Shown: positions 11,268-42,147 of the stretch, piece by piece | How the letters are laid out: each line of letters begins with the position of its first letter | Numbering within the stretch: position 1 is the stretch's first letter | NCBI GenBank assembly: GCA_944391515.1 | Contig: CALXTW010000012.1 | Span: 1-58,377 of the forward strand | Direction of reading: 5' to 3' | DNA from: an uncultured Alphaproteobacteria bacterium | Lineage (GTDB): Bacteria; Pseudomonadota; Alphaproteobacteria; RF32; CAG-239 | Length of the DNA stretch: 58,377 bases | The notes under the pieces: model-generated | The model's database searches: none | What the model was told of the DNA's origin: nothing | What the model saw: the letters and a program-made list of their open reading frames with translations, nothing else | Position numbers and translations under genes: made by a program

Positions 11268-11342
11268 GCGGGCGTAGCTCAGGGGTAGAGCGCAACCTTG
11301 CCAAGGTTGATGTCGAGGGTTCGAATCCCTTCACCCGCTCCA
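11268..11342 (+). tRNA. tRNA-Gly (GCC)
   Basis: The cloverleaf folds with anticodon loop TTGCCAA and an encoded 3' CCA. The T-arm is GAGGG-TTCGAAT-CCCTT. The acceptor stem has one C-A mismatch at positions 6-67 (5' strand GCGGGCG, 3' strand CACCCGC), whereas the second tRNA-Gly at 58178 has a perfect pair there. It is followed by a terminator and by tail-regenerating repeats. Confidence 0.95.
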
Positions 11343-11605
11343 TTTTCAAACCTCCCATTGTGGAGGTTTTGTTGTATCTGGGTGAAGGGATTGCATCCCT
11401 TTCTGGCTTGTAAGTTCAAGTCTAAAGACTTTCACTAACTGCGCTGCGGTCACTTGATTTGTAAACGCTTTTTTCGGCGGCGCTGTTTCTTGCCTCAAAG
11501 CTAACAAATCTGCGCCTGTCGTCAAAATAACCTCCACCGGAGGTTATTTTCTTCTCCAGCCCGCTCCAATTTTCAAACCTCCCATTGTGGAGGGGAGTTG
11601 TAAAC
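11343..11605 (+). repeat. tRNA-Gly tail-regenerating repeat (one full unit plus partial)
   Basis: After the tRNA comes a terminator hairpin (AACCTCC / GGAGGTT, 11347-11367), then a core of about 90 bp shared with the tRNA-Arg repeats (about 11440-11527: GCTGCGGTCACTTGATTTGT, TCTTGCCTCAAAGCTAAC, AAATCTGCGCCTGTCGTCA). A 12-bp perfect hairpin follows (AAAATAACCTCC / GGAGGTTATTTT, 11525-11551) and then a new copy of the tRNA end CCGCTCCA at 11561-11568. The unit is 226 bp. The terminator sequence restarts at 11569 but is cut short where the 107-bp repeats begin. Confidence 0.85.
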
Positions 11606-11965
11606 GCGGCGCGTTTAATCGCAAGACTTAGCTGTTTGGGTTCGGTTGCCCTGACGTCGCGATGCTTGCTTCTTGCTGTGCTTAATCTTTGAGGCTTATA
11701 GATGTCTTTAATGCGGCGCGTTTAATCGCAAGACTTAGCTGTTTGGGTTCGGTTGCCCTGACGTCGCGATGCTTGCTTCTTGCTGTGCTTAATCTTTGAG
11801 GCTTATAGATGTCTTTAATGCGGCGCGTTTAATCGCAAGACTTAGCTGTTTGGGTTCGGTTGCCCTGACGTCGCGATGCTTGCTTCTTGCTGTGCTTAAT
11901 CTTTGAGGCTTATGGGTGTCTTTAATGTGGCGCGTTTAATCGCAGACTTAGCTGTGTATTCGTGC
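11606..11965. repeat. 107-bp tandem repeat, 3.3 copies
   Basis: The sequence starting GCGGCGCGTTTAATCGCAAG recurs at 11606, 11713, 11820 and (partial, GTGG variant) 11927, exactly 107 bp apart. Copies 1-3 are almost identical and end in ATGTCTTTAAT. Each contains a T-arm-like GGGTTCGG and a CG-rich ACGTCGCGATGC stretch. I see no open frame of note. It directly follows the tRNA-Gly repeat and precedes the glycosyltransferase gene's 3' end. Confidence 0.9.
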
Positions 11966-14431: not shown

Positions 14432-14521
14432 GGAGAGATGGCAGAGTGGTCGAATGCGGTTGACTCGAAATCAATTGTACTCTTACGGGTACCGGGAGTT
14501 CGAATCTCCCTCTCTCCGCCA
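14432..14521 (+). tRNA. tRNA-Ser (CGA)
   Basis: A class II tRNA with a long variable arm. The anticodon loop is CTCGAAA, the acceptor stem GGAGAGA / TCTCTCC is perfect, and 3' CCA is encoded. The T-arm is GGGAG-TTCGAAT-CTCCC. A terminator follows at once and then tail-regenerating repeats. Confidence 0.95.
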
Positions 14522-14812
14522 TAAACAAAGCCCTGCCGAAGTGCGGGGCTTTGTTTTTGTTGAGGAGAGATGAGGTTCGAACTCCCGAAAAAGGGAGTTT
14601 GATAAGGAGGAGCAGGCGAGACGAAGTATCGCCGCACTTGCGACGACGCAGTGCGTTAAGAAAACTTGAAAAGTTTTTAGCCATCTCCCTCTCTCCGCCA
14701 TAAACAAAGCCCTGCCAAAGTGCGGGACTTTTTTTGTTGAGGAGAGATGAGGTTCGAACTCCCGAAAAAGGGAGTTTGATAAGGAGGAGCAGGCGAGACG
14801 AAAGGGGCTTAT
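14522..14812 (+). repeat. tRNA-Ser tail-regenerating repeats (1.6 units of 179 bp)
   Basis: The first unit (14522-14700) contains the tRNA terminator hairpin (AACAAAGCCCTGC / GTGCGGGGCTTTGTT, 14523-14558), a hairpin AACTCCC / GGGAGTT, an imperfect CGCACTTGCG / CGCAGTGCG stem, and AAAACTT / AAGTTTT just before a new copy of the tRNA 3' end (ATCTCCCTCTCTCCGCCA, ending at 14700). The second copy starts identically at 14701 and stops after about 110 bp. The layout matches the Gly and Arg arrays although most of the sequence differs. Antisense frames here are the familiar spurious tRNA-Ser reverse ORFs. Confidence 0.85.
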
Positions 14813-32206: not shown

Positions 32207-32628
32207 TGGACGACTAGTACAGAAATTGCGGGTCGAAAGTGTCCTCACGTACTAAAAGTGTACGCTGCGGTACTTTCGCCTTTATTTCTTACTATTCGTC
32301 TCATTCTCCAAGTTTTTTGTAAAAACTCGTATAATGGTCATCTAATACAGAATTGGCGATTGGTAAAAACTCGTCTAGTTGGTAACTAGAGTAATTTTAC
32401 GCGGTCTCGAAAAATTCACGTACGTTTTATGTACGCTAAAATTTTTCTTGCCGCTAGAAATCACTCTATATTATACACGCTATCCAAGCTTTTTGTAAAA
32501 AAACTCGTCTAGCAGGTAACTAGAGTAATTTTACGCGGTCTCGAAAAATTCACGTACGTTTTATGTACGCTAAAATTTTTCTTGCCGCTAGAAATCACTC
32601 TATTTATGCACGCTATCCGAGTTTTTTG
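32192..32628. repeat. Tandem large palindromic repeats between rlmN and a lipoprotein gene
   Basis: The gap and both gene ends hold three near-complete units of about 130 bp (32192-32319, 32363-32494, 32495-32628) and a 44-bp fragment at 32320-32362. Each unit is an imperfect palindrome starting with AAAAACTyG and ending with CAAGTTTTTTG-like sequence. In the last two units pairs include AGAGT/ACTCT, GCGG/CCGC, GAAAAATT/AATTTTTC and CGTAC/GTACG. Unit 1 keeps the same shape with different arms (CGAAAGT/ACTTTCG). The final T-runs on both strands make each a possible bidirectional terminator. Confidence 0.85.
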
Positions 32629-33077
32629 TCAGAATTTATTTTTTTATTTGCAATAGGTATCAATTTACCAGAAGAAGATATTTCATATCCCATTTGTTGA
32701 AGTTCTTCTATGCCGGCTTCATTAAAAGTATAAAAATATACTAATTCCCTTTGATTAATCGTTTCGGCGTCAATAGCTGCTTCCGGAATGCCCCAAAGAA
32801 TCGATATGGGCCAAGTTAAAAGGTTTAGTGAGCCGTAAAGGTAGTGGCTGCTATCTCCGCCGTTGCCTGATGCCAGATAAAAATTGCCAAATCCAGGAAG
32901 AATGTTTAGAGCTGCGGCTCCTGCCGGATTGGCTGGTCTTTCCCAGTTGCCTTTGGGTTTATCTACGCTTATTCCTTTGGATTCCAGACTGCGAATAGTG
33001 TTCCTTTCGCTATAACTTAATGAAGTGCAAGCAGAAAGGGTTAGTATTAATGCTGTATAAAGTACGATTTTTTTCAT
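32613..33077 (-). CDS. Hypothetical lipoprotein, 154 aa
   Basis: The signal peptide ends in lipobox LSACTS (Cys at residue 16). A middle glycine-rich hydrophobic part, ILPGFGNFYLASGNGG followed by LYGSLNLLTWPISILWGIPEAAID, could associate with membrane and recalls small TM2-like or YjfL-type lipoproteins. I do not recognise the family. The last codons (DKKLG, TAG) lie in the palindromic repeat shared with rlmN. The upstream region holds a separate palindromic element. Confidence 0.65.
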   Translation of the reverse strand: MKKIVLYTALILTLSACTSLSYSERNTIRSLESKGISVDKPKGNWERPANPAGAAALNILPGFGNFYLASGNGGDSSHYLYGSLNLLTWPISILWGIPEAAIDAETINQRELVYFYTFNEAGIEELQQMGYEISSSGKLIPIANKKINSDKKLG

Positions 33078-41323: not shown

Positions 41324-41400
41324 GTACCCGTAGCTCAGTTGGATAGAGTGTTGGCCTCCGACGCCAAAGGTCGTGGGTTCGAATCCCCCCGGGTACGCCA
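41324..41400 (+). tRNA. tRNA-Arg (CCG)
   Basis: Anticodon loop CTCCGAC, perfect acceptor stem GTACCCG / CGGGTAC, discriminator G and encoded CCA. T-arm GTGGG-TTCGAAT-CCCCC. It is followed by terminator AAGAGGTC / GGCCTCTT and a long array of tail-regenerating repeats. Confidence 0.95.
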
Positions 41401-42147
41401 TAAACAAAAGAGGTCGCTCGTCGGCCTCTTTTTTTATGCTTCCGGTGGGTCGAACCCAGGGTTCGTTCTGGCTCGTAAGCTCATAATATTCGCTAACTCG
41501 CTGCGGTCACTTGATTTGTAACACTTTTTCGGCAGCGATATCTCTTGCCTCAAAGTTAACAAATCTGCGCCTGTCGTCAGAAAATTCTTTGAGTGAGAAT
41601 TTTCTTTCCTTCAGCCCCTCGGGTACGCCATAAAATAAAAGAGGTCGCTTGTCGGCCTCTTTTTATTTATGCTTCCGGTGGGTCGAACCCAGGGTTCGTT
41701 CTGGCTCGTAAGCTCATAATATTAGCTAACTCGCTGCGGTCACTTGATTTGTAACACTTTTTCGGCAGCGATATCTCTTGCCTCAAAGCTAACAAATCTG
41801 CGCCTGTCGTCAGAAAATTATTTGAGTGAGAATTTTCTTTCCTCCAGCCCCTCGGGTACGCCATAAATAAAAGAGGTCGCTCGTCGGCCTCTTTTGTTTT
41901 ATGCTTCCGGTGGGTCGAACCCAGGGTTCGTTCTGGCTCGTAAGCTCATAATATTCGCTAACTCGCTGCGGTCACTTGATTTGTAACACTTTTTCGGCAG
42001 CGATATCTCTTGCCTCAAAGCTAACAAATCTGCGCCTGTCGTCAGAAAATTCTTTGAGTGAGAATTTTCTTTCCTCCAGCCCCTCGGGTACGCCATAAAT
42101 AAAAGAGGTCGCTTGTCGGCCTCTTTTTATTTATGCTTCCGGTGGGC
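41401..42147 (+). repeat. tRNA-Arg tail-regenerating tandem array, 3.2 units of 231-232 bp
   Basis: Units end at 41632, 41863 and 42095, each with a new copy of the tRNA 3' end (CTCGGGTACGCCA) and then TAAA-plus-terminator; a fourth unit stops after the terminator and TGCTTCCGGTGGG at about 42147. Each unit holds: the terminator hairpin; TCGAACCC/GGGTTCG palindrome; a core shared with the tRNA-Gly unit (CGCTGCGGTCACTTGATTTG, TCTTGCCTCAAAG, TAACAAATCTGCGCCTGTCG); and a hairpin AGAAAATTCT / AGAATTTTCT just before the new tRNA end. Units differ at only a few positions. Antisense frames of about 65 codons run through units 2 and 3; unit 1 has a TGA in the same frame. Confidence 0.92.

Follow-up and report, generated by a model that had tools for sequence, protein, structure and literature searches.

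A covarying hairpin beside regenerated tRNA ends is part of a short structured repeat, possibly a mobile DNA element, in a family of Alphaproteobacteria

Here, we analysed a stretch of 58,377 nucleotides (the window; contig CALXTW010000012.1 of assembly GCA_944391515.1) from an uncultured alphaproteobacterium of the lineage RF32; CAG-239, in which genes for tRNA-Gly(gcc), tRNA-Ser(cga) and tRNA-Arg(ccg) are followed by units that end in a copy of the tRNA's own 3' end. Just before this regenerated end of the Gly unit lies a hairpin, hp2, to which attention had been drawn by an earlier reading of the sequence (the original prediction). The Gly unit contains a conserved core, of which hp2 is one end. 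The features at the three loci are the following:

11268 to 11342, + strand: intact tRNA-Gly(gcc) (ARAGORN, Rfam tRNA model)
11342 to 11370, + strand: tRNA-Gly terminator hairpin AACCTCCCATTGTGGAGGTT, found again at 11569-11593 past the regenerated end (direct repeat D8)
11380 to 11401, + strand: inverted copy of the tRNA-Gly T-arm 3' strand/acceptor, GGGTGAAGGGATT (inverted repeat I6)
11385 to 11401: outer hairpin AAGGGAT-TGC-ATCCCTT, made by the inverted T-arm copy
11398 to 11564, + strand: class-1 core of the Gly unit with hp1, long stem P3, hp2 and tips TTCTGGC...CTCCAGCC (covariance model R1, 148.9 bits; helices from mutual information)
11524 to 11550, + strand: hp2, 12 bp with a 3-nt loop (sequence, folding, covariation)
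11560 to 11570, + strand: regenerated tRNA-Gly 3' end GCCCGCTCCA (sequence)
14432 to 14521, + strand: intact tRNA-Ser(cga) (ARAGORN)
14522 to 14700, + strand: Ser unit, comprising a terminator, inverted T-arm, unrelated class-2-like core, hairpin at 14661-14677 and regenerated 3' end CTCCCTCTCTCCGCCA
41324 to 41400, + strand: intact tRNA-Arg(ccg) (ARAGORN)
41463 to 41619, + strand: class-1 core of Arg unit 1 (R1, 152.1 bits)
41696 to 41852, + strand: class-1 core of Arg unit 2 (R1, 150.5 bits)
41928 to 42084, + strand: class-1 core of Arg unit 3 (R1, 155.3 bits)

In the Gly unit, hp2 consists of AAAATAACCTCC (11524-11535), the loop ACC (11536-11538) and GGAGGTTATTTT (11539-11550), forming 12 perfect pairs; the original prediction had recognized this hairpin but set it one base too far to the right, at 11525-11551. 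Folded as single-stranded DNA, the 66-nt hp2 region reached -11.7 kcal/mol, compared with -3.2 (standard deviation 1.5) for shuffles (z -5.6). Arg units 1 and 3 carry AGAAAATTCT/AGAATTTTCT (41579-41605 and 42044-42070), the hairpin of Arg unit 2 (41812-41838) has one mismatch (AGAAAATTAT), and the Ser unit contains AAAACTT-GAA-AAGTTTT; all of these stems had been listed beforehand, and all were found in the sequence. That a hairpin precedes each new tRNA end, however, did not hold as a rule: one with z <= -2 lies directly 5' of the regenerated end in 10 of the 23 distinct units of the window genome, including Gly, Arg 1 and 3, Ser-cga, Ala, Phe, Leu-gag and both Val. The hairpin is hence common among units but not universal, and units with a reversed core have hp2 at their opposite end.

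Units of this kind, ~135-250 bp long, follow 20 of the 38 tRNA genes of the window genome, each gene being trailed by one to three of them, and they were seen in many genera and tRNA species. A typical unit starts with the tRNA 3' half including CCA, its terminator and a piece of the T-arm/acceptor region in inverted copy, and continues with the 5' strand of the T-stem as a direct copy, the core, the T-stem 3' strand up to CCA, and again a terminator. As strands of the T-stem flank the core on both sides, its position corresponds to the T-loop of an incomplete tRNA copy. The inverted T-arm piece tracks the sequence of the host tRNA across species, as seen for tRNA-Gly in genomes G000 (the window genome), G003/G005 and G015. 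The core itself (class 1, ~160 nt) is common to the Gly and Arg units and comprises hp1, P3, hp2 as its 3' end rather than as a free-standing hairpin, and a short helix between CAG of the right tip and CTG before hp2. Reading of the unit sequences points to a second kind of core in the Ser-cga, Met, Trp, Lys and Ser-gga units and to a third in the Gln, Ser-gct and Thr-ggt units. The Ser hairpin thus occupies the same place as hp2 of Gly and Arg without being homologous to it. Since these cores are unrelated, a comparison of Ser with Gly or Arg does not strictly qualify as covariation; the Gly and Arg hairpins are homologous, sharing one core.

The original prediction had proposed a covariation test on many genomic copies, whose failure to show significant covariation would have spoken against it. 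Run on homologues from many genomes, the test was positive, with shuffled and slid controls far below. The 47 distinct hp2 hairpins contain 538 Watson-Crick pairs, 14 G-U, 2 A-C and 3 others. In 28 homologues aligned without gaps, pairing was found in 97.9 % of stem cells, compared with 74.8 % when shuffled (0 of 500 shuffles reached the observed pairing) and 43-57 % when slid; relatedness of the sequences is uncorrected in these covariation counts, and the slid control retains it. Both sides had changed in 12 of 15 pairs of the same homologues, namely 9/12 in hp2 and 3/3 in the enclosing tip helix. Furthermore, mutual information recovered hp1, P3 and the CTG:CAG helix, the alignment for P3 and hp1 being fitted to the covariance model. 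Covariation of hp2 is therefore real and strong: a stem of 12 bp is held while its sequence is replaced. Its length (10-12 bp), 3-nt loop and distance to both tips are constant across genera, and most copies carry the loop motif YCNCMGGR. At one locus (L103), two tandem units are alike except for hp2, which was replaced wholesale.

The model R1, built from 20 class-1 cores and used to search other genomes for this class of core, gave matches in 97 of the 101 genomes belonging to the window genome's family, with 1 to at least 28 copies per genome among the best-scored candidates. In a sample of 240 genomes from across the Alphaproteobacteria, 4 carry it: G000, G012 and G018, from the same family, and G122 from another. 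In the latter (L214), the core lies between two copies of a ~107-bp repeat that combines a tRNA 3' half with a terminator and an inverted T-arm; the last of these copies has the inverted arm but lacks a core. All named records with the exact core pattern are metagenome-assembled genomes of uncultured proteobacteria, mostly Alphaproteobacteria. An Rfam scan of the window at gathering score returned only tRNA, with no match for the core or RtT, and ten unit-bearing loci searched up to E of 1 likewise gave nothing but tRNA. A 23-base core pattern had no match in IMG/VR, and the core had none in plasmids. A phage origin was rejected, as the sole "phage" match, MT837050.1 (L204), is a bacterial fragment; this "Bacteriophage sp." record is a piece of chromosome with tRNA-Pro, sugar-nucleotide enzymes and a methionine aminopeptidase-like gene. 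Our literature search found no description of such a core, which may be a small mobile element that is apparently undescribed.

The original prediction treated the hairpin alone and missed this larger dispersed core, which also occurs 5' of tRNA genes and away from them. For instance, the 5' half of tRNA-Pro(ggg) (L122, L129, L133, L134) and of tRNA-Val (L130, L199) is present twice, the upstream copy being split by a reversed core past the anticodon or past the variable loop; a congener (G015, L209) has tRNA-Pro(ggg) without the upstream copy. At L204, a copy of tRNA-Pro(tgg) is interrupted at the anticodon loop. Genome G074 contains ~22 near-identical cores inside unrelated palindromic repeats, none of them at tRNA genes, and the uninterrupted palindrome (e.g., AAACCCTCCCCGACCCTCCCTAAG) has ~60 copies in that genome, compared with 3 for a control pattern. 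Dispersed near-identical copies together with uninterrupted target sites, as expected for elements akin to miniature inverted-repeat transposable elements (MITEs), were thus found there. In either orientation, the core occupies hairpins, namely the T-arm or anticodon arm of a partial tRNA copy or another palindrome. The tRNA-linked units examined combine the core with a short inverted arm copy and a spare half of the tRNA, either the 3' half including its CCA and terminator or the 5' half, and one intact tRNA gene remains.

From these positions, and from the copies and uninterrupted sites, we infer that the core moves and targets stem-loops. Our favoured interpretation, to which we assign a probability of roughly one half, is that hp2 forms one structural end of a mobile DNA repeat of ~160 bp, which would be non-autonomous and directed to stem-loops. 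In such a model, a trans-acting recombinase or transposase would work on the folded core strand and put the core into stem-loop targets, with hp2 as recognition hairpin for one end of the element. Where a tRNA gene is essential, only insertions bringing or creating a replacement tRNA half would survive. The element might bring this half along, as integrative elements do (PMC9897764), or the half might arise by fold-back duplication, which the inverted copies beside direct copies of the tRNA arm would fit. Tandem arrays could then grow through repeated insertion or unequal crossing-over.

Several points count against a mobile DNA repeat. No mobilising enzyme was found: the number of copies follows neither Y1 transposase nor IS110 nor reverse transcriptase. 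By our reading of the junctions, insertions in G074 lose ~2 bp and leave no target-site duplication, and no constant target word was found. Moreover, hp2 alone has 14 G-U but 2 A-C (p 0.004), as folded RNA would likewise give. The whole core, with 41 G-U and 26 A-C (p 0.09), is at rough parity, with fewer G-U than an evolving RNA would normally retain, which we tentatively read as favouring a DNA strand that folds, although alignment error in the model-fitted P3 and hp1 counts may blur this ratio.

The strongest competitor, which we consider possible but unlikely, is that the core is a functional RNA, either a small RNA or else a fragment processed from the tRNA transcript, comparable to the rtT RNA of E. 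coli tyrT, with hp2 as a 3' terminator or stability hairpin and acceptor-like ends that make it tRNA-like. Strong covariation of several helices is what such an RNA would show, as is the excess of G-U over A-C in hp2 in the core strand. In addition, hp2 is shaped like a terminator, with an A-rich 5' and a T-rich 3' arm, and some reversed units (L058, L059, L098, L053) have the tRNA's own terminator in its place. Yet G-U makes up just 2.5 % of hp2 pairs (14/557), and in the model alignment 10 of 13 fall on one loop-side position, the second pair counted from the loop, which has an almost invariant GG; at these loci, G-U reaches 8.3 % in tRNA stems (72 G-U and 6 A-C) and 4.8 % in tRNA terminators (36 and 3). 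Because the conserved part begins within ~15 nt of hp1, the core leaves no room for an internal promoter, and by eye the dispersed G074 copies share none in their flanks. The orientation of the core relative to the tRNA varies (35 same and 5 opposite at tRNA 3' ends), 3' units have it behind a strong tRNA terminator, and Rfam offers no match. Given few G-U in hp2, no space for a promoter and variable orientation, a non-autonomous DNA element is favoured over an RNA gene. Thus, where the original prediction had left the choice between a functional RNA and a DNA cruciform used in duplication, covariation was borne out and the former alternative lost ground, while the cruciform is possible.

Covariation might also be a by-product, if template switching in imperfect palindromes (quasi-palindrome correction) re-makes hairpins and introduces compensatory changes without selection. 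The near-perfect stems, with G-T and A-C intermediates rare outside one position, would fit this, as would the exchange of a whole hp2 in L103 and the outer hairpins, in which an inverted and a direct tRNA arm copy show that fold-back copying leaves traces. Nevertheless, we regard it as improbable, as it would not account for the constancy of hp2 length, of the 3-nt loop with its motif and of the distance to both tips across genera, nor for covariation in P3 and in a tip helix that is distinct from hp2 and lies beyond it. Least probable are tandemly repeated remnants of phage or island integration by tyrosine integrases, despite T-loop/anticodon-loop breakpoints with partial and intact tRNA copies, a known mark of such integration (PMC9897764; PMC1762012), as nothing of kilobase size lies between the copies and the same conserved core is found in either orientation, at numerous tRNA genes as well as inside non-tRNA palindromes.

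If the core is a mobile DNA repeat, what could move it? An IS200/IS605-type mover was rejected, as Y1 (PF01797) is missing from the high-copy genomes G074, G045, G041, G010, G001 and G020. The only Y1 transposase of the window genome (contig 4, 35585-35950; L045 1680-2108) lies directly behind tRNA-His, and its ends are unlike the core; a truncated left end of the core follows this gene. IS110 with a bridge RNA was discarded, its transposase (PF02371) missing from 16 of 16 genomes tested, as was a retroelement, reverse transcriptase being patchy and missing from G041 and G009. Integron attC and Xer dif boxes do not fit by eye, and a shared flanking helix failed as a general rule (mean 12.5 compared with 9.6 for swapped flanks), reflecting largely duplicated terminators. 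We tentatively suggest, though with less than even odds, a ~160-bp structured DNA that would choose stem-loops by structure, carry a replacement tRNA half and be moved by a recombinase other than Y1/HUH, IS110 or reverse transcriptase.

To some extent, these units are reminiscent of known systems. Behind the E. coli tyrT gene (rtT RNA), tandem units of ~180 bp each carry a copy of the tRNA 3' end. Tandem units with a tRNA 3' end occur here too, but at about half of a genome's tRNA genes instead of one tRNA, with a core that is common to several tRNAs in both orientations, lies also 5' of and away from tRNAs, and has no Rfam RtT match. The tRNA-targeting integrative elements (PMC9897764) share the T-loop/anticodon-loop breakpoints, a duplicated half that keeps the tRNA intact and a direct repeat of a tRNA half at both ends, likewise present here. 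In contrast, our units are mostly <250 bp, lack an integrase and space for a gene (135-250 bp), place an inverted arm copy beside the core, and have the same core at many tRNAs. Repetitive extragenic palindromes (REP) and bacterial interspersed mosaic elements (BIME), MITEs and IS200/IS605-derived repeats are similarly short, non-coding, dispersed and located in palindromic intergenic repeats, and have hairpins near both ends, to which hp1 and hp2, both covarying, correspond here. The core differs from these in its unconserved stem sequence and in targets that include tRNA stem-loops, and from IS200/IS605-derived repeats in the lack of a Y1 transposase in six high-copy genomes.

Other repeats and inserts were also seen. 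Directly past the Gly unit, positions 11606-11955 of the window hold 3.3 copies of a 107-bp tandem repeat whose start, TAAACGCGGCGCGTTTAATCGCA, is also present 3' of tRNA-Gly in G006 (L064), where the unit is absent. A 134-bp tandem repeat (two copies, 95 %) occupies 32365-32629. Past tRNA-Trp at L027 (~190-670 bp), two regenerated tRNA-Trp ends enclose an insert of 485 bp that carries a small open reading frame resembling a zinc-ribbon protein. Integrase-like reading frames shortly downstream of tRNA-Gln-ttg (L046) and tRNA-Ser-tga (L052) appear by eye to belong to ordinary islands.

If our interpretation is true, a structured repeat has remodelled the vicinity of roughly half the tRNA genes in one bacterial family, always leaving a working copy, and long-unexplained tandem repeats at tRNA ends, such as those of tyrT, would be linked to mobile DNA that selects its targets by shape. 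The balance of G-U and A-C intermediates provides a clear comparative test between DNA and RNA hairpins. Furthermore, the units may explain assembly breaks at tRNA genes in these genomes, several contigs of G013 ending inside units.
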